Part shown: positions 13,952 to 26,477 of the stretch, one piece after another
Numbering within the stretch: the first letter of the stretch is position 1
How the letters are laid out: every line of letters starts with the position of its first letter
NCBI RefSeq assembly: GCF_023516505.1
Contig: NZ_JAMGBB010000001.1
Coordinates: forward strand, 372,001-436,000
Length of the DNA stretch: 64,000 bases
Source: Sphingomonas brevis
GTDB taxonomy: Bacteria; Pseudomonadota; Alphaproteobacteria; Sphingomonadales; Sphingomonadaceae
Direction: 5' to 3'
Position numbers and translations under genes: made by a program
Notes under the pieces: generated by a model
Databases searched by the model: none
What the model saw: the letters and a program-made list of their open reading frames with translations, nothing else
What the model was told of the DNA's origin: nothing

Positions 13952-15547
13952 GTGGGGAACGAGGGCGCACATCGCTGGCATCCAAAGCTGATCGAAGCGG
14001 CGGCGGCGCTTACCGAAAACCGGTTGGACGTGGCCGAACGAATCCTGAAGCCATATCTCAAGGAAGATCCGTTCGATGTCCGCGCGATCCGCATGCTGGC
14101 CGAGCTGGCGGCCCGGATCGGACGGCTGAATGATAGCGAGACACTGTTGCGGCGCGCGCTGGAGATAGCTCCCAATTTCCATCCGGCCCGCACCAATCTG
14201 GCAATGGTTTTGGGCCGCCTCGGCAGGCCGAACGAAGCGCTTGAACTGCTCGACGAGCTATTCGAGGCGGAACCGGAATCCGTGCGCAACGTGAATCTGA
14301 AGGCGGCCACGCTCGGCCGCCTGGGCGATTTCCAAAATGCGATACAGCTCTACGAGCAGGTGATTGCACATGCGCCCAGCCAACCACGCGTCTGGATGAG
14401 CTATGGCCACGTCCTAAAGACGGTAGGTCGGCTTGAGGAGGGGATCGCGGCCTACCGCAAGGCTTTAGATCTGAATCCAACTGCCGGCGAGGCATGGTGG
14501 AGCCTGGCCAATCTCAAGACGGTGCGGTTCACCGAGGAAGATATCGCCGCGATGCAACGAGCGTTGGCGAGCGCCGACCTACGAGATGACGACCGTTTCC
14601 ACCTGGACTTTGCGCTGGGTAAAGCGTTTCACGACGCCGAGCGCGGCGAAGAGGCCTTCGCGCACTACAGCGCCGGCAATGCCCTGCGCAGAAAATATCA
14701 TCCGTTCCGTCAGAGTGACGTCGCCCAGCTGGTTGACCGCAGCATTGAATTTTTTACGGCGGAGGTCCTTGCCGGACTGGGGGGGTGCGACGCTCCCGAT
14801 CCGATTTTCGTTGTGGGCATGCCGCGGGCCGGATCGACGCTCGTCGAGCAAATCATTTCGTCGCATAGCCAGGTGGAAGGTCTTTCGGAGTTGCAGGACA
14901 TGCCGGCCTTGGCGCGGGAGGGCGGGCGACGCTATCCCATCGGCATTACGGCACTTGGTGCCGACGAGCGGCGACGGTCGGGCGAAGACTATCTGATGCG
15001 GGCGTCGGTTCAGCGAAGGACCGAGCGCCCCTATTTCATCGACAAGCTGCCCAATAATTGGATGTTCGTCCCGTTCATCCACATGATCCTGCCGAACGCC
15101 AAAATCATCGATGCCAGGCGGCATCCGCTCGGATGCTGCATGTCCAATTTTCGCCAGCATTTCGCTCGGGGCCAGGATTACACCTACTCTCTCGGCGACC
15201 TTGGCCATTTTTACGCCAACTACGTTCGCCTGATGGCGCATGTCGACACGGTGCTTCCGGGACGCGTCCATCGCGTGATCTATGAGCGCATGGTGGATGA
15301 CACTGAAGCCGAGGTCAGGGCACTGCTTGATTACTGCGGCCTCGAGTTCGAGCCGCAGTGCCTGGAATTTCACAAGACCGAGCGCGCCGTGCGCACTCCA
15401 AGCTCGGAGCAGGTGCGCCAGCCGATTTATCGCGACGCGACGGGGGAATGGCAACGCTATGAGAAGTACCTCGGACCGCTCAAGGAAGCGCTCGGGGAAG
15501 TGCTCGATGCCTATCCGGACGCACCCGCGTCGTTTTTGCAACGCTAG
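13952..15547 (+). CDS. TPR-repeat sulfotransferase
   Basis: A two-part protein of 531 residues. Residues about 15-200 form TPR helices (LGRLGRPNEALELLDELFEA, LGRLGDFQNAIQLYEQVIA). From about 285 there is a PAPS-dependent sulfotransferase domain with the 5'-phosphosulfate loop FVVGMPRAGSTLVEQIISSH, and about 375-395 has the 3'-phosphate region (IIDARRHPLGCCMSNFRQHF). GTG start with AGGAGAAG just upstream. The acceptor is unknown; TPRs suggest a protein or peptide partner. Such genes often lie beside TonB receptors in sphingomonads and caulobacters, as here. Confidence 0.88.
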   Translation: MGNEGAHRWHPKLIEAAAALTENRLDVAERILKPYLKEDPFDVRAIRMLAELAARIGRLNDSETLLRRALEIAPNFHPARTNLAMVLGRLGRPNEALELLDELFEAEPESVRNVNLKAATLGRLGDFQNAIQLYEQVIAHAPSQPRVWMSYGHVLKTVGRLEEGIAAYRKALDLNPTAGEAWWSLANLKTVRFTEEDIAAMQRALASADLRDDDRFHLDFALGKAFHDAERGEEAFAHYSAGNALRRKYHPFRQSDVAQLVDRSIEFFTAEVLAGLGGCDAPDPIFVVGMPRAGSTLVEQIISSHSQVEGLSELQDMPALAREGGRRYPIGITALGADERRRSGEDYLMRASVQRRTERPYFIDKLPNNWMFVPFIHMILPNAKIIDARRHPLGCCMSNFRQHFARGQDYTYSLGDLGHFYANYVRLMAHVDTVLPGRVHRVIYERMVDDTEAEVRALLDYCGLEFEPQCLEFHKTERAVRTPSSEQVRQPIYRDATGEWQRYEKYLGPLKEALGEVLDAYPDAPASFLQR

Positions 15548-15592
15548 AGAGCGAAATTCATCGAATTGGTGCACCGCCGCAACGGATGGTCG

Positions 15593-15624
15593 TTGACAAG
15601 CAACAGCGGCTCTGTCGCTATCGT
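15593..15624 (+). promoter_or_regulatory. Possible promoter of the TonB receptor gene
   Basis: A perfect TTGACA (-35) at 15593-15598 lies 19 to 20 bases before a weak -10 candidate (CTATCGT, 15618-15624). The long spacer makes this only tentative. Confidence 0.3.
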
Positions 15625-15651
15625 GACATATGAGTTTCAATGGGGGCATTG

Positions 15652-18279
15652 ATGGCTAATCGTACATTTCGCGCGCTGACCTGGGGCCTGCTGGCGACCA
15701 CGGCCTTTATCCAACCTGCGTTTGCGCAAGATGCGGGCGCGGCACCAGGTCCGGTACCTCAAGAGCCCGCGTCAGCCGCGACTGCGGCGGCGCCCGAACC
15801 CGAAGGCGACGTGATCATCGTCACCGCGACCAAGCGCGAAGAGAATCTGCAGGACGTGCCGATCAGCGTCCAGGCGATCGGCACCAAGAGGCTCGACCAG
15901 CTGAACATCTCCAACTTCGAGGAGTATACCAAGCAGCTGCCGTCAGTCAGCTATCAGACGATCGCGCCGAGTGCGACGGTCGTCTACATGCGCGGCGTGG
16001 CCACCGGCGGCGACGGCAATCACACAGGCTCCTTCCCCTCTGTGGGATCGTATCTCGATGAGCAGCCGATCACGACCATCGGGGGGACACTCGACGTCCA
16101 CATCTACGACATCGCCCGGATCGAAAGCCTCGCCGGACCGCAGGGCACGCTTTACGGCGCATCGAGCCAGGCCGGCACGATCCGCATCATCACCAACAAG
16201 CCGGAGCTGGGAGTAACCAGCGGACGGATCGACGGCGAAATCAACAAAATCGCTCATGGCGGTTGGGGCGGCAGCCTCGAGGGGATGATCAACCTCCCCG
16301 TCGCCGATAATATGGCGTTCCGGGCCAGCGCCTTCTACCAGCGCGACGGCGGATATATCGACAATGTGTTCGGCGAGAAGACCTATTGCGGCGATAAGGT
16401 CTTCGGTCCCGACGGCTCCGACGAAGATGGCCCCGATGACGATCTCGATCCCGATATCATCGGGTGCGTCCGCAATGGCACCCACATCGAGAATTCCCAG
16501 TTCGTTAAGAAGAACTTCAACACGGTGAAGACCTATGGCGGGCGTGCCGCGCTGAAGATCGACCTGGATGACAATTGGACGATTACGCCGACGATCATGC
16601 ACCAGAACCAGAAGACAAAGGGCGTCTTCTTCATGGACGAGGCGTTGGGCGACCTTGAGACGCAGCGGTTCCGGGAAGAGCCGTCGAAGGACAAGTTTAC
16701 CCAATATGCGCTGACGGTCGAAGGCAAGATCGGCAGCTTCGACATCACTTACGCCGGTGCCTATATGCACCGGCCCAACTTCGCGGTCGGCGACTATGTC
16801 GACTACACATATGCCTACGATCAAGCTTACGAGCCCGACGGCGGCATTGTGAACTACCTCTATTATTATGACGACGACGGCAATCTGATCGATCCAACGC
16901 AGTACATCACCGGCGGAAACAATTTCAAAAAAATGAGCCAGGAGCTGCGGATCGCCTCGCCAGCAGAAAACCGCTTCCGGGTGATCGCGGGCCTATTTTA
17001 CCAGCGGCAGGCGAACGACATTCTTCAAGAATATCATGTCGACAATCTGGCAACCCAGCTGTCGGTCAATGGTCATCCCGGCCTCATTTGGCTGACCAAG
17101 CAGGAACGTATCGACCGCGACTATGCAATATTCGGGGAAGCCAGCTTCGACGTCACGCCCAAGATCACGCTGACGGGTGGTGGACGCTATTATAAATTCA
17201 ACAATACGGTGTTCGGCTTCGCCGGATTCGGCCGCGATTTCAATGGGCCTCCTTTCAATGCAGCCGGCAGTAGCAAGACCGGCATCCCCCAGTGCTTTAC
17301 CGAGAGCGGATTGACGTACCGGGAAGCGCTGTTGGCGGGCGAGGACACGACCCTGATCCTCGACGGCGCGCTAGATGACACGCCCTGCATCAATGTCGGC
17401 AGGTTTGAGGATGGCGAGGTCAAACCGAAGCAGAGCAAGGACCATGGCTGGACGTACCGTTTCAACGGAACCTGGAAGCCGCAGGAAGACCTGATGTTCT
17501 ATGCTACCTGGTCAAAGGGCTTCAGACCGGGCGGCATCAATCGCCAGCCTGGCCTCGCCCCCTACGATCCGGACTTCCTGATCAACTATGAACTGGGCTG
17601 GAAAACGACCTTTGGACCGTTCCGGTGGAACGGTGCGGTCTATCACCAGAAATGGGAGAAATTCCAGTTCAGCTTCCTGGGCGAAAACAGCCTGACGGTT
17701 GTTCAGAACGGGCGAAACGCCGGGATCAACGGCATTGAGAGCGACATCAATTACTCCAGTGGCGGCTTCACCCTGAACGCGGCGGCCGCCTATACGGACG
17801 CCAAAACGACGGACAACGTTTGCGGGGTGGCCGGCAACCCTGAGCCGGATTGCCACCTCCTGCTGGATGACAACGGCACCCCAGACCCCTCTGATGACGT
17901 TTTCGACGAGATCACGGCACCAGATGGAACCCGGTTGCCGATCACTCCCAAATTCTCATTCTCGGCGACGGCACGCTACGCCTGGAACATGGGCCCCGGC
18001 AGGGCACACGTGCAGGCCGGCCTAGTCTATAAGGGTTCTTCGCGTTCTGCCCTCAACACGGCGGATCAAGAGTCGACCGGGACGCAAGAGGCCTACACTT
18101 TGGTTGACCTGTTCGCGGGTTACGATTGGAAGCAATACAACTTCGAATTGTTCACCACGAATCTCTTCGATGATCGCAATCAGCTGTCGCGTTTCACGGT
18201 CTGTGGCGGATGCTCGAACGTCCACATCGTGCCCGGCCGTCCGCGGACGATTGGCCTCAGGCTGGGAGCGAAATTCTAG
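15652..18279 (+). CDS. TonB-dependent outer-membrane receptor
   Basis: Ligand-gated outer-membrane channel. Signal peptide about residues 1-25 (TTAFIQPAFAQ), a TonB-box-like start (DVIIVTATKREENLQDVPI), then plug domain (LAGPQGTLYGASSQAGTIRI) and a large beta-barrel ending in Phe (GLRLGAKF). At about 875 residues it has the usual size. ATG 15652 has GGGGG five bases upstream; an in-frame ATG at 15640 is possible. Substrate unknown: there are no siderophore or sugar-use genes next to it, only the TPR-sulfotransferase upstream. Confidence 0.93.
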   Translation: MANRTFRALTWGLLATTAFIQPAFAQDAGAAPGPVPQEPASAATAAAPEPEGDVIIVTATKREENLQDVPISVQAIGTKRLDQLNISNFEEYTKQLPSVSYQTIAPSATVVYMRGVATGGDGNHTGSFPSVGSYLDEQPITTIGGTLDVHIYDIARIESLAGPQGTLYGASSQAGTIRIITNKPELGVTSGRIDGEINKIAHGGWGGSLEGMINLPVADNMAFRASAFYQRDGGYIDNVFGEKTYCGDKVFGPDGSDEDGPDDDLDPDIIGCVRNGTHIENSQFVKKNFNTVKTYGGRAALKIDLDDNWTITPTIMHQNQKTKGVFFMDEALGDLETQRFREEPSKDKFTQYALTVEGKIGSFDITYAGAYMHRPNFAVGDYVDYTYAYDQAYEPDGGIVNYLYYYDDDGNLIDPTQYITGGNNFKKMSQELRIASPAENRFRVIAGLFYQRQANDILQEYHVDNLATQLSVNGHPGLIWLTKQERIDRDYAIFGEASFDVTPKITLTGGGRYYKFNNTVFGFAGFGRDFNGPPFNAAGSSKTGIPQCFTESGLTYREALLAGEDTTLILDGALDDTPCINVGRFEDGEVKPKQSKDHGWTYRFNGTWKPQEDLMFYATWSKGFRPGGINRQPGLAPYDPDFLINYELGWKTTFGPFRWNGAVYHQKWEKFQFSFLGENSLTVVQNGRNAGINGIESDINYSSGGFTLNAAAAYTDAKTTDNVCGVAGNPEPDCHLLLDDNGTPDPSDDVFDEITAPDGTRLPITPKFSFSATARYAWNMGPGRAHVQAGLVYKGSSRSALNTADQESTGTQEAYTLVDLFAGYDWKQYNFELFTTNLFDDRNQLSRFTVCGGCSNVHIVPGRPRTIGLRLGAKF

Positions 18280-18655: not shown

Positions 18656-19756
18656 TTAGACGTTAAACTTGAAGTGGAGGACGTCGCCGTCCTTTACCAC
18701 ATATTCCTTGCCTTCCTGCCGGAGCTTGCCGGCGTCGCGTGCGCCGGCTTCTCCATTGAGCGCAATGTAATCGTCATAGGCGATGGTTTCGGCGCGGATG
18801 AAGCCGCGCTCGAAATCGGTGTGGATCTCACCGGCCGCCCGAGGTGCCTTTGAACCTTTTTCGACCGTCCAGGCGCGGGCCTCCTTCGGACCGACAGTGA
18901 AGAAGGTAATCAGATGGAGGAGGTCGTAGCCGGCGCGGATGACGCGGGTGAGGCCGGTCTCGTGCAGGCCCATCTCCTCGAGGAAGGCGATGCGCTCGTC
19001 CATGTCCATGGTGATGAGGTCCGCCTCGATGGCGGCCGAGACGATGACCGCATTGGCGCCTTCGGCCTTGGCTTTGTCGAACACGCGCGCCGATTGGGAA
19101 TTGCCCTCGGCGGCCTCGTCCTCATTGACGTTGCAGACGTAAAGGACCGGCTTGGCAGTGATCAGCTGAGCCTGGCTAAAAACGCGCGCCTCTTCATCGT
19201 CCTTGGGCTTCGTAAGGCGCGCCGGCCTGCCTTCGCGCAGGAGGTCGAGAGCCTGGCCCAGTACCGAAGCGGCAATTTTAGATTCCTTGTCGCCCTGCTG
19301 GCCACGCTTGACGAGGTTGGGAACTCGCTTCTCGAGGCTTTCGAGGTCGCTCAGCAGCAGCTCGGTTTCGACCGTCTCGGCATCGGCGATCGGGTCGACC
19401 TTATTCTCGACATGCTGGATGTCGTCATTCTCGAAGCAGCGCAGGACATGGACGATGGCATCGACCTCGCGGATGTTGCCGAGGAACTGGTTGCCAAGCC
19501 CTTCGCCCTTGGACGCGCCCTTAACCAGGCCGGCAATGTCGACGAAGGCAAGCTGGGTCGGAATGATCTTGGCCGAGCCGGCGATCGCGGCAAGCTTGTC
19601 GAGGCGCGGATCGGGCACCGCGACCTGACCGACGTTGGGCTCGATCGTGCAGAAAGGATAATTGGCCGCCTGCGCCGCCTGAGTCTCGGTCAGCGCATTG
19701 AAGAGGGTCGACTTGCCGACGTTCGGCAGGCCGACGATGCCGCATTTAAAGCCCAT
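18656..19756 (-). CDS. ychF: Redox-responsive ATPase YchF/OLA1
   Basis: Universally conserved OBG-type P-loop protein that binds ATP and ribosomes and affects stress responses. The 366 residues contain G1 GLPNVGKST (residues 9-17), G3 DIAGLV, the NVNED-type altered G4 and a C-terminal TGS domain (FFTVGPKEARAWTVEKG to the HFKFNV end). Its usual neighbours pth and rplY lie upstream in the same orientation but are separated by oxygenase genes. Confidence 0.97.
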   Translation of the reverse strand: MGFKCGIVGLPNVGKSTLFNALTETQAAQAANYPFCTIEPNVGQVAVPDPRLDKLAAIAGSAKIIPTQLAFVDIAGLVKGASKGEGLGNQFLGNIREVDAIVHVLRCFENDDIQHVENKVDPIADAETVETELLLSDLESLEKRVPNLVKRGQQGDKESKIAASVLGQALDLLREGRPARLTKPKDDEEARVFSQAQLITAKPVLYVCNVNEDEAAEGNSQSARVFDKAKAEGANAVIVSAAIEADLITMDMDERIAFLEEMGLHETGLTRVIRAGYDLLHLITFFTVGPKEARAWTVEKGSKAPRAAGEIHTDFERGFIRAETIAYDDYIALNGEAGARDAGKLRQEGKEYVVKDGDVLHFKFNV

Positions 19757-19882: not shown

Positions 19883-20482
19883 TCACGCGAAATTGAAGCT
19901 GATGCTTAGCCGGTCGGCCTTCGCGGTGCCCGGCAGCACCTCGTGGCGCAGCCAGCTTTCCCACATCAGCAGCAGGCCCGGCTCCGGCTCGACGGCAACG
20001 AAAGGACGCAGATCGTCGGGGGCGTCTTCGCGGCGGACCGGCGCGGCCATCATCTGCCCCAGCCGCGGATCTTCGAAACGGATCGCTCCGCTGCCCTTCG
20101 GCGCCTCGACGTAGAGGGTGCCGGAGATGATCGAGTGGGGATGGATGTGCCCGGCATGATGGCCGCCCGGCTTCAGCAAGTTGACCCAAATGCTGTCTAG
20201 CTTCGGCTTGCGGGCAAGATCGAACGCAACTTCGCCGGCAAATTCGGCGGCATGGCGGGCAAGCAGCTTTCGTAGATCCTCAAACGCCGGGTCCCGTCGC
20301 GGCAGGTCGTTCAATGAGGCATAGCTGGTATAACCCGCATAGCGCTTCTCGCGGCTCCATCGCTTTCCGGCATCGTCGTCGGTGGCAAAAATCCTGATCG
20401 ACCGCGCGAGCTCGGCGAGCAGCCGCTGGTTGTCGATCCTGGCTTCGTAAAGGCGTGTCGCGAACAGGCTTCGGGCAGGCAT
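19883..20482 (-). CDS. Putative 2OG-Fe(II) oxygenase, TIGR02466/PF13759-like
   Basis: A 199-residue protein related in its core to the two plus-strand genes that follow. It has the metal-site pattern His112-x-His114 (GGHHAGHIHPHSIISGTLYV), a distal His180 (WLRHEVLPG) and Arg191 for 2-oxoglutarate (DRLSISFNFA), as in putative 2OG-Fe(II) oxygenases. It is on the strand opposite to its two relatives, with 110 bases between them. Substrate unknown. The family call is from motif reading. Confidence 0.75.
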   Translation of the reverse strand: MPARSLFATRLYEARIDNQRLLAELARSIRIFATDDDAGKRWSREKRYAGYTSYASLNDLPRRDPAFEDLRKLLARHAAEFAGEVAFDLARKPKLDSIWVNLLKPGGHHAGHIHPHSIISGTLYVEAPKGSGAIRFEDPRLGQMMAAPVRREDAPDDLRPFVAVEPEPGLLLMWESWLRHEVLPGTAKADRLSISFNFA

Positions 20483-20592
20483 CCGACAAGCTTAGCCTCT
20501 TGCGCTCGGCCCCGCGAGAGGCTTTGACGTCGACCAGGCGCTACGAACGGCAGTGCAATACGACGAACGGCGATAACGCAGCGGGGGATAAA

Positions 20593-21252
20593 TTGGCGTT
20601 CAAGCTTGACCGTGTGGATGAAGTGTTCCCGACGCCGCTGCTGCGGTTCGAGGTAGCGGACGCCGACCGGCTCAACCGTAACTTGATGAAGGAAATCGCC
20701 GCGCGCCAGAAGGCCGAGGGCGGCATGAACCGCAGCAACCGCAAGGGATGGCACAGCGAACGCGATCTGTTCGACCGTAAGGAGCCGGCCCATTCGGAAC
20801 TGGCGCAAATGCTGCTTCGAATGATCGCGCAGGCGACCAAGCACTATGCGCCCAATACCGATTTCACCGGCATGGAGATCCTTGCAGACGGCTGGATCAA
20901 CGTTAACCAGCGCGGCGCCTATAATTCGCCTCACGACCATGTCGGGAGCTTCTGGTCGGGCGTCTATTACGTGCAACAGCCGGAAGACGTCGAAGGCCAT
21001 AGCGGAACAATCGAATTTCTCTCGCCGCACAAGGCGTTGCAGGGCAGGGGACTGATCGAGGCACCGATAACCGCCGACAAGATGACGGTCAGGCCGAAGG
21101 CCGGAATGGCCATCCTGTTCCCATGCACGCTGGTCCACTGGGTCCACCCCAACGACAGCGAGACCGACCGGGTGACGATCGCATTCAATGCTCATTTCCG
21201 CCGGCGCCAGCCGGTCGGGCCAGGCCAGGCGATCCGGAGCCGCAAGAGATGA
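20593..21252 (+). CDS. Putative 2OG-Fe(II) oxygenase, TIGR02466 type (tandem copy 1)
   Basis: About 219 residues from a TTG start preceded by GCGGGGG; a longer reading back to 20455 overlaps the divergent gene and has unconserved residues. Core features are GWINVNQRGAYNSPHDHVG with His114 and His116, SGVYYV, IEFLSPH, and distal His182 (LVHWVHPN) followed by DRVTIAFNAHF. The next gene starts within its stop codon and shares much sequence, so the two arose by tandem duplication. Confidence 0.8.
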   Translation: MAFKLDRVDEVFPTPLLRFEVADADRLNRNLMKEIAARQKAEGGMNRSNRKGWHSERDLFDRKEPAHSELAQMLLRMIAQATKHYAPNTDFTGMEILADGWINVNQRGAYNSPHDHVGSFWSGVYYVQQPEDVEGHSGTIEFLSPHKALQGRGLIEAPITADKMTVRPKAGMAILFPCTLVHWVHPNDSETDRVTIAFNAHFRRRQPVGPGQAIRSRKR

Positions 21253-21890
21253 GCTATTCGCTGGTCAAGGTCGACAGCCTCTTTCCGGTCCTGCTTTTCC
21301 GCTACCGGATCGATCAGGACGGGCTCAACGAGAGGCTTGCCAAGGAAATTGCCGCGCGTCGCAAGGCGGAAGGCGGCATGGCCAACAGCGGACGGCTAGG
21401 CTGGCAGTCGGAACATGATTTTTTCATGCGCCAGGAACCGGGGCACGCCGCGCTGGCGCGTTTGATCGGCCAGGTCATGAAGTCGACAATCCAGTCGATC
21501 GATCCGGCGGCCGATTTGGCCAAAATCCAGGTGACGATGAACGGCTGGGTCAACGTCAACCCGCCGGGCGGGTACAACGGGCCGCACCAGCATACCGATG
21601 CGGTGCTGTCAGGCGTCTATTATATCGACGTTCCGCGCGGTCCGTCGGAAAAGGGCGGGGCAATTGAGTTTCTGTCACCTCATCCGGTGCGGCTGCTTGG
21701 CGGCTTGCTGAAAGCCGACATGTTCGCCGAGCGGGTCCACATGCAGCCCAAGGCCGGTGACATGGTGATCTTCCCCGGCCAGTTGCCGCATTGGGTCCAT
21801 CCCAACGATAGCGGCAAGCCGCGCATCACGGTTGCCTTCAACGCGAGGATCAGTCCGCGGCGCCCAGCCGCCGCGCAATCTCGCTCATGA
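21249..21890 (+). CDS. Putative 2OG-Fe(II) oxygenase, TIGR02466 type (tandem copy 2)
   Basis: 213 residues, ATG overlapping the stop of the preceding gene (ATGA). It closely parallels that protein: AARRKAEGGMANSGRLGWQS against AARQKAEGGMNRSNRKGWHS, GPHQHTDAVLSGVYYI (His113, His115), IEFLSPH, and LPHWVHPNDSGKPRITVAFN (His181). The last 13 or so residues are read through sequence that is antisense to the end of pth. Function unknown; by family it would hydroxylate a small molecule, amino acid or peptide. Confidence 0.82.
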   Translation: MSYSLVKVDSLFPVLLFRYRIDQDGLNERLAKEIAARRKAEGGMANSGRLGWQSEHDFFMRQEPGHAALARLIGQVMKSTIQSIDPAADLAKIQVTMNGWVNVNPPGGYNGPHQHTDAVLSGVYYIDVPRGPSEKGGAIEFLSPHPVRLLGGLLKADMFAERVHMQPKAGDMVIFPGQLPHWVHPNDSGKPRITVAFNARISPRRPAAAQSRS

Positions 21891-22431
21891 AGCGGGCGTC
21901 GTCTCCGTCCGCCAGCCACTCGGCCTCGGCAGCGATCGCACCAAGCAGGTCGGACAGCGGCTCCATCTCGCTCTTGGCGTAGTTGCCAAGCACGTGGGGC
22001 GTGACCTTTTCCTTCTGGCCTGGGCCCGGATGGCCGATGCCGATACGCACGCGGCGGAAATCCGGCCCCAGGGAGGCGTTGATCGATCGCAGGCCGTTAT
22101 GACCGGCCAGTCCGCCGCCAACCCGCACCTTGACCTTGAATGGGGCCAGGTCGAGCTCGTCATGGAAGGCGGTCAGCGCGCCGACGTCGAGCTTGTAGAA
22201 GTTGAGCGCCTGTTGAACCGCATCACCGCTGTCGTTCATGTAGGTTTGAGGCTTTAGCAGCAGCAACTTGTGGCGGTTGATCCTGCCTTCGCTGACCAGG
22301 GCGCGAAACTTCTTCTGCCATGGGCCAAAGCCATGGACCTCGGCCACGGCATCGACGGCCATGAAGCCGACATTGTGTCGATGCAGCGCATATTGCGCGC
22401 CAGGATTACCGAGGCCGGCCCAGATTTGCAT
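21850..22431 (-). CDS. pth: Peptidyl-tRNA hydrolase
   Basis: Recycles peptidyl-tRNA released from stalled ribosomes. The 193 residues include GLGNPG with Asn9, the catalytic His19 in HRHNVGF, LLLKPQTYMNDSG, FHDELDLAPFKVKVR and GGLAGHNGLRSI. The start ATG is at 22431. Its 3' end overlaps the convergent oxygenase gene by 41 bases. rplY lies upstream on the same strand but 1.4 kb away, with a plus-strand gene in between. Confidence 0.96.
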   Translation of the reverse strand: MQIWAGLGNPGAQYALHRHNVGFMAVDAVAEVHGFGPWQKKFRALVSEGRINRHKLLLLKPQTYMNDSGDAVQQALNFYKLDVGALTAFHDELDLAPFKVKVRVGGGLAGHNGLRSINASLGPDFRRVRIGIGHPGPGQKEKVTPHVLGNYAKSEMEPLSDLLGAIAAEAEWLADGDDARFMSEIARRLGAAD

Positions 22432-22493: not shown

Positions 22494-23735
22494 ATGAGCG
22501 AGGCCGAAACATTTGGTGAGCTGCTGGCCAGGGCCAATCGGGAGAATATTGACGGCAATCCGGCCGGAGCAATCGAGCAGCTGAACCGGGCGCTAATTCA
22601 ATCGCCGGGAAATCCTTCAGCCCTCAATATGATGGGCTTGATCCTGATGAATGGCGGACGACACGGCGATGCGGTCGCCGCATTCGAACGGGCCGTGACC
22701 TCCGATCCCGGCGCTCCGCCGCTTTGGCTGAACCTTGGAACCGCGCTGGAGAAGGCCGGACGGCCGAAGGACGCGCTCGGCGCATTGGACAAAGGGCTTG
22801 AGTGCGATCCCTATTATTTGCCCGCGCTTCTCAAGAAAGGGCAATTGTACGAAGCCCTTGGACAGAGCGATCTTGCCGTCCGCAGCTACCGCGCCGTCTT
22901 GCAGGCCCTGCCGGCGACCGGAGGCTTGCCGCCGGAGTTCGACCAGGCGCTGGCGCGCGGCCGCGCGCTGGTCGCCGATGATGCCCGTCAGCGCCGCGAG
23001 CGGTTGGGCGCGATCGACGGGCTCGCCAACGTCAGCGGGTCGGGCGCCAAAGCCTATCTCGACCAGATTTGCGGGCTTCGCCAAGTCTATGCCCCCGCTC
23101 CAACCGGGCCGCATTTTCCGTTCCTGCCGGCCCCTGAGTTCTTCGACCGCGACCTGTTTCCATGGTTCGACCGGCTGGAGGCTGGCGTTGAGGCGATCCG
23201 GGACGAGTTGCTCGACCTGTGGCGAGAGGATGCGCCGGGTTTCGAACCCTATATCCAATATGATCCGACCAAGCCGCTGAACCAGTGGGTAGAGCTCAAC
23301 AAATCGCCACGATGGAGCGCCTATTCATTGTGGACTAGCGGCATGCGGGAAGAGGCCAATTGCTCTCGCTGCCCGAGGACGGCCGAGATTCTGGCAGGCC
23401 TGCCGCTGCTCGATATTCCCGGCAAGGGCCCCGCCGTCATGTTTTCCATCCTGGCGCCGAAGACGCGAATTCCGCCGCATACGGGAACGACAAATATCAG
23501 GTCGGTCGTTCACTTGCCCCTGGTAGTCCCGGATGGCTGCGGCTTTCGCGTCGGCGGCGAGATACGCCAATGGGTCGAGGGAGAGGCTTGGGCGTTCGAC
23601 GACACTATCGAGCATGAGGCCTGGAACGACAGCGACCGGCCCCGCGCGATCCTGATCATCGATGTCTGGAATCCATATCTAAGCGAAGCCGATCGGGACG
23701 TCGTTCGCCTATCGGCACCGGAAATCCGGCTTTAG
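22494..23735 (+). CDS. TPR protein with aspartyl/asparaginyl beta-hydroxylase domain
   Basis: A 413-residue protein. Residues about 10-130 are TPR repeats (NPSALNMMGLILMNGGRHGD, PLWLNLGTALEKAGRPKDAL). From about 290 there is an AspH-type 2OG-Fe(II) domain with His329 (PPHTGTTNIRSVVHLPL), His374 (DDTIEHEAWND) and Arg384 (DRPRAILIIDVWNP). The 10-residue His-Arg spacing matches known AspH enzymes. It would hydroxylate Asp, Asn or a related residue in an unknown protein or peptide. It lies between rplY and pth on the opposite strand. Confidence 0.88.
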   Translation: MSEAETFGELLARANRENIDGNPAGAIEQLNRALIQSPGNPSALNMMGLILMNGGRHGDAVAAFERAVTSDPGAPPLWLNLGTALEKAGRPKDALGALDKGLECDPYYLPALLKKGQLYEALGQSDLAVRSYRAVLQALPATGGLPPEFDQALARGRALVADDARQRRERLGAIDGLANVSGSGAKAYLDQICGLRQVYAPAPTGPHFPFLPAPEFFDRDLFPWFDRLEAGVEAIRDELLDLWREDAPGFEPYIQYDPTKPLNQWVELNKSPRWSAYSLWTSGMREEANCSRCPRTAEILAGLPLLDIPGKGPAVMFSILAPKTRIPPHTGTTNIRSVVHLPLVVPDGCGFRVGGEIRQWVEGEAWAFDDTIEHEAWNDSDRPRAILIIDVWNPYLSEADRDVVRLSAPEIRL

Positions 23736-23809: not shown

Positions 23810-24487
23810 TTAGGCTTCGTCGCCACCCTCGGCGGGGGCTTCGCCTTCGCCTTCAGCCTCATCCTCACCAACGGTCGGGACTTCGCCCTCAGCGGCGGTC
23901 TCTTCCTCTTCGGCCTTCATCGCCGACGGAGCGACGATCGTCGCGACGGTGAAGTCGCGGTCGTCGATCGCGGCCTTGGTGCCCTGAGGCAGCTTGACGT
24001 CGCTGATGTGGATTGAATCGCCGATGTCGAGGCCATCGAGCGGGATGTGGATCTCTTCCGGAATGTGGGCCGCGTCGCACACCAGCTCCAGCTCGTGCTG
24101 GACGATGTTGAGCACGCCGCCACGCTTGAGGCCCGGCGAAGCTTCTTCATTGTCGAAGCGGACCGGGATCGCCACGGTGACCTTGCTGTGTTCGCCGATG
24201 CGCAGGAAATCGACATGGATCGGGCGGCTGCTGACCGGGTGGAAATCCACCGCCTTCGGCAGGGTCCGGTTGGGTTTGCCGTCCAGCTCGATCATGACGA
24301 CCGAATTCATGAAGTGCCCGGTGTGGAGCATCTTCGTCAGGAGCTTTTCCTCGACGTGGATCGAGAGGGCTTCCTTCTTGTCGCCGTAAACCACGGCGGG
24401 GACCCGGCCTTCGCGGCGCAGTGCACGGGAGGCTCCCTTGCCAGCCCGATCGCGCGCTTCGGCGGGCAGCGTCAGCTGTTCGCTCAT
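23810..24487 (-). CDS. rplY: 50S ribosomal protein L25/general stress protein Ctc
   Basis: Binds 5S rRNA. The long Ctc/TL5 form of 225 residues has an N-terminal L25 domain ([27 protein letters not shown]), a C-terminal TL5 domain ([20 protein letters not shown]) and an acidic Glu/Ala-rich tail. The ATG at 24487 has GAAGGA upstream; an earlier in-frame codon at 24538 adds unconserved residues. Confidence 0.94.
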
Positions 24488-24595
24488 TTCGCATTTTCCT
24501 TCGTTAAACTGCCCCGCCACGCCTCCAGGGATGACCATGGGTGGGCAAGCGCGCGCCTATAGGGGCGAGGGCCCCGTTTGGCAAGTTTGGGCGTC

Positions 24596-25465
24596 CTAGC
24601 TGACGCGCGCTGCCGTAATGCCGCGCGCGGCAAGCCACGACTGGACGCTGTCCTTGCCGGCGAGATGACCCGATCCGACGGCGATGAACACCGTCCCAGG
24701 CTGTTGCAGCCGGTCGGAAATCCACTGGCCCCAGCGGGCGTTACGGTCGGCGATCAGCATCCGATAGGCGGTCGGCGACTTCGCCGCGAAGCCGGCCAAC
24801 ATGTCGGAAAATGCGCCGGTATCGCCCCTGGTCCAGGCGCCGAGCAAATCGTTGAGAGTGACGGTCACGGCCGGCGTGGTCGACGCGGCAGCCGCGCCTG
24901 GCGGCGGAACCGGGATATTGGCCAGCGCCTTGAGCTGGTCCTCGAACTTTTCAAGCCCTCCGACCGGCTTGCCGGCGCCCTCGGCTACCCGGCGAAGGAC
25001 CGCGTCCGCCCCATTTTCGACCGACATGCCGATGCTCCGACCGGTGCCGATGGCGGCCTGGGTCTGGGCCATGAATGGCTTCATCCGGCGCTTGCCGTCG
25101 GCGGTCACTTCGGTCACCTCGGGCCTTGCGGTCTCCTGAAGAGCGCGCGGGTCGGCTGGTACAACAGTCTCCAGCACCAGCTCTTCCGAGGCGTCGAACG
25201 CGGTCCGGACCTTGTCGCCGAACCAGGCGGTGCGGTTGTCGAGCGAATGGAATGTGCCGAACAGGTAGATGGTCGTGTCGGCGTCGCGGATTACCCAAAG
25301 TGCCGGCGTCGCATGGACCACGCTGGCCGCGCGGATTTGGGGCATTGGCGCCGCCTGAAGCGCGCCGGCAGTCGATGTCGGCAGCATAGCGAGCATGCCC
25401 GCAAGGACCGTCGCTGCCGTTTTGATGGGCGCGATACGCCTGGCGCCAAATCGAGTCCGTTCCAT
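24596..25465 (-). CDS. TraB/GumN family protein, copy 1
   Basis: An exported 289-residue protein with an N-terminal signal segment (about 12-38). TraB/GumN features are TTIYLFGTFHSL (about residues 65-76), an LVLETVVP strand, and near the C-terminus VFIAVGSGHLAGKDSVQSWL. The family is proposed to contain metalloprotease-like or heme/erythromycin-esterase-like folds, but its activity is poorly defined. A second member lies just upstream in the same orientation. Confidence 0.85.
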   Translation of the reverse strand: MERTRFGARRIAPIKTAATVLAGMLAMLPTSTAGALQAAPMPQIRAASVVHATPALWVIRDADTTIYLFGTFHSLDNRTAWFGDKVRTAFDASEELVLETVVPADPRALQETARPEVTEVTADGKRRMKPFMAQTQAAIGTGRSIGMSVENGADAVLRRVAEGAGKPVGGLEKFEDQLKALANIPVPPPGAAAASTTPAVTVTLNDLLGAWTRGDTGAFSDMLAGFAAKSPTAYRMLIADRNARWGQWISDRLQQPGTVFIAVGSGHLAGKDSVQSWLAARGITAARVS

Positions 25466-25577
25466 TGGCGACCCCCCGCCGATTGAGGTCTAAACAATTG
25501 GCCAATAATGATTAATGGTCAACGAACCCAGCGAGGATTTCACCTAGTTTGCGACGAAAAGAGCCTGAGGCGCGGGA

Positions 25578-26477
25578 TTATTGGACGCGTGTGACTTTGA
25601 CGCCATCTTTCTGGAGCATGCTCACCACCGACTGATCGCCGGCAAGGTGGCCGGCGCCGACCGCGACCAGGACCGTGCCAGGCTTGTCCAGCCGGCTCTG
25701 CACCCATTGAGCCCAATTGGCATTGCGGCGGACGAGCAGCGCATCCTTGAGCTCCGCCGCATCGCTGAGCTCGGCATTGAAGCTGTCGGCGATCGCCTTG
25801 ACGTCGCCCTTGCTCCACGCCGCCAGCATTCCGCCGAACTGGTCCTTCATCTCGCCGGCATCGTCGAGCACACCGATCAGGAATTCGCGCTGCGCTTTCT
25901 CGGACAGCTTGTCGAAGAAGCCGAGCTGCTCGGCATTGGTTTCAAGCTGGTCGATCGGCTTGCCGCCGTCTTCGAACTGCTTGCGCAGGACCGATTCCAC
26001 TCCGGAACTGGGATCGAGGCCCAGATCCTTGAACTGGACGCCAAGCAGCAGGAATGCCGCGGCCCAGGTTTCCATCTTGTCGAGCGCCTGCACTGGAATA
26101 CCCGACTTGGCGATCGCGTCGTCGAGCGCCGCCTTTCTGTCAGCCGGGATGCGCGCGGACAGCGGCGGAAGGCCGGGAGAAATGGCGAGCTTGAACAGTT
26201 CGCCCATGGTAGCCGCCGGATCCTTTTCATCAACCACGGTCTCGACGATCAGCGTGTCCGATCCGGCAGCGACCTTGTCGAATGCCGGGCTTCGCCACAC
26301 CGTGCCCTTGGGCAGCAGATGGATGGTGCCGAACAGATAGATTGTGGTGTCGCTGTCGGCCACTTTCCACAAGGCCGGGCTGGCGGCCTTGGGCTCCGCC
26401 GCCGGGGCAGCGCAGGCAGTGGCGGCAATGGCGCCAAACGCGGCCAGCTTGCGGACAAAACGCTTTAACAGGCTCAT
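25578..26477 (-). CDS. TraB/GumN family protein, copy 2
   Basis: 299 residues. The signal peptide ends around AATACAAPA, and the Cys could be a weak lipobox. It has TTIYLFGTIHLLPKGTVWRS, LIVETVVDE and the C-terminal VLVAVGAGHLAGDQSVVSML, which match copy 1. The stops and starts leave 112 bases between them, so they could form one transcript. The two differ enough that this is an old duplication. Divergent from glyQ. Confidence 0.87.
   Translation of the reverse strand: MSLLKRFVRKLAAFGAIAATACAAPAAEPKAASPALWKVADSDTTIYLFGTIHLLPKGTVWRSPAFDKVAAGSDTLIVETVVDEKDPAATMGELFKLAISPGLPPLSARIPADRKAALDDAIAKSGIPVQALDKMETWAAAFLLLGVQFKDLGLDPSSGVESVLRKQFEDGGKPIDQLETNAEQLGFFDKLSEKAQREFLIGVLDDAGEMKDQFGGMLAAWSKGDVKAIADSFNAELSDAAELKDALLVRRNANWAQWVQSRLDKPGTVLVAVGAGHLAGDQSVVSMLQKDGVKVTRVQ

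Follow-up and report, generated by a model that had tools for sequence, protein, structure and literature searches.

An invariant HxH motif in the PF13759 family and three of its members at the pth-ychF locus of Sphingomonas brevis

Results

Three PF13759 genes between pth and ychF

The stretch of DNA analysed here, referred to as the window, comprises 64,000 nucleotides of the Sphingomonas brevis genome. A reading of the sequence alone had proposed three related oxygenases at this locus, in which the metal ligand that is usually Asp or Glu is replaced by His. The three reading frames are all open, and the features of the locus are as follows.

18656..19756, minus strand: ychF, downstream of P1 and in the same direction (named from sequence, without a family search)
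19883..20482, minus strand: P1, a TIGR02466/PF13759 protein of the P1-type subfamily, 199 aa; H112, H114, Y124, H180, R191 (RLS)
20141..20149, minus strand: HxH codons of P1 (H112-I-H114), from the translation and invariant alignment columns
20593..21252, plus strand: P2, a PF13759 protein, 219 aa, TTG start; H114-D-H116, Y126, H182, R193 (RVT); family DPR changed to SPH
20932..20940, plus strand: HxH codons of P2 (H114-D-H116), from the translation and the alignment
21249..21890, plus strand: P3, a PF13759 protein, 213 aa, in ATGA overlap with P2; H113-Q-H115, Y125, H181, R192 (RIT); DPR changed to SPH
21585..21593, plus strand: HxH codons of P3 (H113-Q-H115), from the translation, invariant columns and hhalign
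21850..22431, minus strand: pth, upstream of P1 and in the same direction (named from sequence)
23810..24538, minus strand: rplY (L25/Ctc), head of the order rplY-pth-P1-ychF (named from sequence)

P2 and P3 sit between pth and P1 on the opposite strand. The TTG start of P2 at 20593, which has a GGGGG stretch directly upstream, agrees with the P3 start in the alignment; alternative in-frame GTG/TTG starts lie at 20455, 20500 and 20524, the last of which was picked by a codon-scored gene list. P2 and P3 overlap by ATGA (21249-21252) and are 44% identical, in keeping with the tandem duplication joined by ATGA that the sequence-only reading had described, and P3 overlaps the convergent pth by 41 bases. 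P1 is 26% identical to P2 and 28% identical to P3. A search of the whole genome (2.59 Mb, two contigs; E 0.001) returns three PF13759 matches, namely P1, P2 and P3.

Against PF13759 (2OG-FeII_Oxy_5), P1, P2 and P3 score 111.5, 77.7 and 75.1 bits (E values 2.8e-32, 9.4e-22 and 6.2e-21), all above the curated cut-off of 27 bits, and against TIGR02466 they score 212.3, 94.1 and 85.7 bits, all above the curated cut-off of 62.5 bits. These matches are far beyond chance, and the kinship of the three as PF13759 proteins stands. Neither a JmjC family nor PF05118 (AspH) is found among their Pfam matches at E <= 0.01.

Other genes of the window deserve mention. Between pth and rplY, a gene at 22494-23735 (plus strand) encodes a TPR and AspH-type (PF05118) protein with an HTG motif recognised by eye, a 2OG-fold relative without a carboxylate ligand; the 22 loci compared yielded no counterpart. 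On a Sulfitobacter plasmid, a TIGR02466 gene is located close to an AspH-domain gene. Two adjacent ORFs at 24596-26477 (minus strand) are of the TraB/PrgY/gumN type, which Pfam supports for the first and inspection by eye for the second; they have relatives in genus regions. A TPR-sulfotransferase/TonB-dependent receptor pair (13952-18279, plus strand) adjoins ychF; such genes occur beside ychF in several genus regions and near P1 in one further locus (L119), not generally, and they were rejected as partners.

HxH as a family signature

Five residues are the same in 171/171 aligned rows, P1-P3 included: the two His of the HxH, a Tyr, the distal His and an Arg. The rows consist of the three window proteins, 100 bacterial proteins (three of them the window proteins refetched) and 68 distinct viral ones. 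The bacterial rows derive from 156 places, of which one below 45 bits was dropped and the remainder lost were duplicates and pieces shorter than 90 residues; the viral rows derive from 92 loci, 80 of them kept, that were located with peptide patterns fixing the first His and not the second. The same five residues appear in 52/52 further rows covering the site, recovered by a profile search among long proteins and plasmid, Streptomyces, cyanophage and phylum-wide loci. This further set held 53 domains, one being an N-terminal piece (from L220) that lacks the site, and at least three of its rows come from genomes already represented in the first set. Of 14 long proteins, the five checked by Pfam are all TPR fusions. 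As the HxH...Y...H...R signature was derived from this family alignment, it is not an independent test of membership.

In 169/171 rows the spacing is constant, with His two residues and Tyr 12 residues after the first His and Arg 11 residues after the distal His, and a Ser or Thr follows two residues after the Arg in 167/171. The residues that would hold the C5 carboxylate of 2OG are therefore kept by sequence (Y 171/171, R 171/171, S/T 167/171), and the HXD/E...H triad of canonical 2OG-Fe(II) oxygenases is absent, its second position being His in all rows. The alignment with PF13759 members that had been suggested as a check contains no invariant D/E column over its 171 rows; the best column, D/E in 160/171, lies in the family DPR motif, where P2 and P3 both have Ser. 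Another Asp or Glu as the true ligand, the outcome that was to refute the proposal, is rejected as far as sequence goes.

What had been noticed in the three proteins is therefore correct in its core, as His replaces Asp/Glu in the HxH of each (P1 H112/H114, P2 H114/H116, P3 H113/H115) and the distal His (180, 182 and 181) and Arg (191, 193 and 192) are present in P1, P2 and P3. The motifs needed some correction: GxHxH applies literally to P3 (GPHQH) and not to P1 (AGHIH) or P2 (SPHDH), and SGxxYV applies to P1 and P2, P3 having SGxxYI. That the HxH is special to these three does not hold, since it marks all rows examined (171/171 and 52/52).

The motif extends to phages. P3 matches 304 phage records, of which 295 bear the name of a cyanobacterial host or a cyanophage, and HxH is carried by all 68 distinct viral rows and by the one phage record examined. 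Because all viral rows examined carry it, many annotations as 'putative 2OG-Fe(II) oxygenase' may conceal a metal site of another kind. The PF13759 gene of Prochlorococcus phage P-SSM2 (L221:5001-5585) is flanked by gp23, which encodes the major capsid protein, and by gp3.

Register and predicted fold

Alignment by hhalign of the family profile with 16 PF13640-type HxD enzymes taken from related genomes equates H113, H115, H181 and R192 with the first His, the Asp, the distal His and the Arg, respectively, with a P-value of 5.9e-5 and a probability of only 37%. Run against three subgroups of the 16, one alignment agrees, one begins past the motif, and in the third a gap moves H115 off the Asp (E 0.0089, probability 4.5%, not significant).

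The structure predictions that had been proposed as a further check were run for P3 and P1. AlphaFold models (P3, from a 43-row alignment: mean pLDDT 87.7, pTM 0.86; P1: mean pLDDT 85.0, pTM 0.85) give both proteins a prolyl-hydroxylase-like fold with a predicted double-stranded beta-helix, nearest to the solved structures 2rg4 and 3bvc and with Z of 16-18 to HxD prolyl hydroxylases. The P3 model matches 3bvc best (Z 19.8, 2.6 A over 177), followed by 2rg4 (Z 19.4, 2.5 A over 175), OGFOD1 (Z 17.7, 2.5 A over 181), the Pseudomonas putida prolyl-4-hydroxylase (Z 16.9, 3.0 A over 173; in its EF-Tu complex 16.6, 3.5 A over 179) and PHD2 (about 16). The P1 model matches 2rg4 and 3bvc with Z 24.6 (2.0 A over 191), and next the P. 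putida enzyme (Z 17.7, 3.0 A over 168), tied with its EF-Tu complex (17.2), a Dictyostelium PHD (17.1) and PHD2 (17.0). Among the 50 matches listed for each model, the rows with a named function are enzymes of the 2OG- or alpha-ketoglutarate type. Since rows within one Z unit are tied, the fold speaks for a prolyl-hydroxylase-like protein and for nothing beyond that; the idea that the closest structures point to translation was withdrawn, HIF hydroxylases ranking level with translation-acting ones.

Because the 2OG-binding Tyr and Arg are kept, we read P1-P3, from their sequences and models, as a three-His variant of the 2OG-oxygenase (prolyl-hydroxylase-like) fold. Of the initial interpretation, the kinship to 2OG-Fe(II) oxygenases with His at the Asp/Glu ligand position is retained, with the 37% probability of the hhalign register and the mixed subgroup runs in mind; a feature specific to three genes that form one set of duplicates is not.

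Evolution of the three genes

In a tree of 111 rows, P1 falls in one large clade and P2 and P3 in another, made up of 16 rows from the genus (14 of them distinct); the deep forks have moderate support (83/88 and 80/90), with a bootstrap not fully settled and many long branches flagged. P2 clusters with the gene of one genome (G233) and P3 with those of three (G120, G214 and G239). As each groups with its own genus relatives, the duplication predates several species splits, and most relatives examined kept a single copy. By this tree, P2 and P3 represent a genus-level duplication and P1 an older paralogue of a separate subfamily, so that neither P1 as an inverted third copy nor a set of three recent duplicates is upheld.

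P2, P3 and the genes most closely related to them have SPH or a similar sequence in place of DPR, while the D and R persist in others of the clade. The near relatives Sphingomonas cremea and S. rhizophila have a P3-like gene (75% and 65% identical), each with one such gene beside P1 in the stretches compared. One viral scan with P2, which reaches close relatives, found no phage source for the tandem pair.

Gene neighbourhood of P1

Among 20 genus regions, 18 hold P1, and all 18 display the order rplY-pth-P1-ychF in one direction; a P2/P3-like gene adjoins P1 on the opposite strand in 10 of the 18, and the remaining two regions contain only a relocated P2-like gene. Within the order, pth lies upstream of the P1-type gene on the same strand and within 5 kb in 29/42 genomes, including all 14 of the genus, the 42 being those with a PF13759 match above 100 bits (a partial match of 98.6 bits, in G090, was left out). 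The linkage is absent in the other 13, several of which are fragmented assemblies. On a plasmid record of Sphingomonas parapaucimobilis, pth shares four bases with the TIGR02466 gene, and one small gene separates them from ychF.

A second placement is found in another family of the class (f29), where the P1-type gene is located between rplP and rpmC of the S10 ribosomal operon in 12/12 genomes with a P1-type match, on the operon strand in seven and on the opposite strand in five; the flanking L16 and L29 were confirmed by Pfam in one locus each. The rplP-rpmC gap of these loci (L301-L312) varies in length, holds P1 either way round and may be an insertion site inside the operon. In one more genome P1 adjoins a gene for a 139-aa protein with an RF-1 domain, presumably ArfB. 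The translation markers searched for are absent near P1 in 8/8 genomes of other families (L313-L320), the genome with the RF-1 neighbour included. P1 orthologues of two families lie near a BCCT transporter gene (L118:10178-11770, by Pfam; L119:8448-10058, by similarity to the former).

The same markers occur in 0/30 PF13640 loci and 0/19 other PF13759 loci taken as controls, as against 19/30 and 9/24 P1-type loci. Among 19 larger loci, pth was found in only one (L136), and ychF was absent from all; the majority had been chosen because both genes were missing from their short flanks, and the queries did not include ribosomal markers. Because kin genomes share one history, the honest unit is the placement, and by a rough count two, perhaps three, of about a dozen placements lie beside translation genes.

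Discussion

By sequence, P1-P3 are members of a known and widespread family, PF13759/TIGR02466, with an unusual family-wide metal motif. In the accessible text of the literature on TIGR02466 and PF13759 we found no measured function for a member, and in that on TIGR02466, PF13759, 2rg4 and 3bvc no discussion of the family-wide HxH motif. We propose, at an even chance of being right, that P1-P3 are three-His ferrous 2OG protein hydroxylases, P1 acting on the translation apparatus and P2/P3 on another or narrower substrate. Fe(II) would be held by the HxH together with the distal His, as the invariance of these residues and the fold suggest, and the invariant Tyr together with the Arg-x-Ser/Thr would, by sequence, bind 2OG; activation of O2 would then lead to hydroxylation of a residue in a protein substrate, as in relatives of the fold. 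Metal, 2OG use and hydroxylation are what we infer for the PF13759 family from sequences and predicted models. The substrate of P1 would be a component of the translation apparatus, judging by gene position, and P2/P3, a pair that arose later and within the genus, differ in the site (DPR to SPH) and so probably have a different or narrower substrate.

The site itself can be explained in other ways. AspH functions with two His, a water replacing the carboxylate (PMC13168262, in the part of the paper at hand), and PF13759 proteins may likewise bind iron through the first and distal His, the second His belonging to the second sphere or contacting the substrate; a His that never varies there, in 171/171 and in 52/52 rows, is more than a spacer needs, and we regard this as quite unlikely. 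It is unlikely, too, that they are three-His dioxygenases that dispense with 2OG or accept some other carboxylate in the Arg/Tyr pocket. Cysteine dioxygenase is such a three-His enzyme and uses no 2OG (PMC2767507, in the text available), yet the counterparts of the residues that bind the C5 carboxylate in OGFOD1 are kept throughout PF13759, Tyr and Arg in 171/171 rows and Ser/Thr in 167/171 (compare the available portion of PMC4396695). A protein that is no oxygenase at all, with a zinc or other metal site put to a different use or with ligand binding as its sole activity, would suit the three His. Zinc is often bound by three His. The pocket residues are kept, however, and the named functions among the 50 matches listed per model are of the 2OG- or alpha-ketoglutarate type, which makes this decidedly improbable.

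The role of P1 is a separate matter. Its position beside translation genes may be passive synteny, the substrate being unrelated to translation, and to this we assign a chance of one half. In the f29 genomes P1 runs opposite to the operon in 5/12, and with the orientation thus mixed (7/12 vs 5/12) that position may be a passive insertion site; the pth linkage is absent in 13/42 genomes of the order, no marker lies near P1 in L313-L320, and related genomes are not independent. Against this stand translation sites in two families that are not homologous to each other, and one neighbour with an RF-1 domain, versus 0/49 control loci. The gene position of P1 hints at its role and is a new lead; our best guess is a translation-linked protein hydroxylase, roughly balanced with passive synteny. 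The further proposition, that PF13759 is a natural family of three-His-iron 2OG oxygenases and that its P1 branch is an unrecognised bacterial hydroxylase of the ribosome or translation factors, with uL16, uL29 and EF-Tu as candidates, we consider doubtful as a whole. If P1 does modify the translation machinery, this would be the first function for the family.

How do these proteins compare with known systems? The closest solved structures, 2rg4 and 3bvc, belong to the same family and are 49 and 48% identical to P1 over 191 aligned residues; their printed alignments contain the HxH, distal His and Arg, as in P1-P3. Counted along the 2rg4 chain sequence, which may differ from the deposited numbering, these fall at about H119, H121, H187 and R198. 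P3 is 23% identical to both, and the entry titles give no function. The site of OGFOD1 consists of H155, D157, Tyr169, H218 and Arg230 with an RXS motif, its Tyr and Arg-x-Ser binding the C5 carboxylate of 2OG (PMC4396695, accessible text); the residue order is the same in the PF13759 family and the spacing is close, whereas the Asp of its HXD is His there. The P. putida prolyl-4-hydroxylase (4j25; 4iw3 with EF-Tu), OGFOD1, which is a uS12 prolyl hydroxylase, and Tpa1 are alike in fold (Z 15.7-17.7) and have the Tyr and Arg-x-Ser pocket and distal His in common with P1-P3, at a sequence identity of 14-19%.

Is an HxH compatible with 2OG chemistry? As far as analogy goes, the precedents conflict. 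Engineering the same change into a prolyl 4-hydroxylase (D414H) left no detectable product (PMC2767507, in the section available), whereas human JMJD8, with an HXH, is reported to be a 2OG-, Fe- and O2-dependent demethylase, of which the H179A/H181A mutant retains little activity (PMC9820096, available text); by their spacing, these two residues would be its HXH. JMJD8 resembles P1-P3 in having HXH...H in a protein of 2OG-oxygenase type, but it belongs to the JmjC family and its reported substrate is methyl-lysine, while at E 0.01 no JmjC model finds P1-P3. In a survey of JmjC proteins from 2008, the compatibility of the HxH type with 2OG chemistry was left open for one subgroup, whose motif is printed there as HxHxH (PMC2453528, in the portion available). 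The answers so far are thus no for one engineered enzyme and yes for JMJD8, and a bacterial and phage family with an invariant HxH bears on the question, which is directly testable because the family has two solved structures and the motif is invariant. An HXH is also part of the rearranged triad of SidB (HXH...E). Other departures from the rule of two His and one carboxylate are AspH (PF05118) and the halogenases, in which water or halide occupies the place (PMC2767507 and PMC13168262, from the parts available) that in PF13759 is taken by His in every row.
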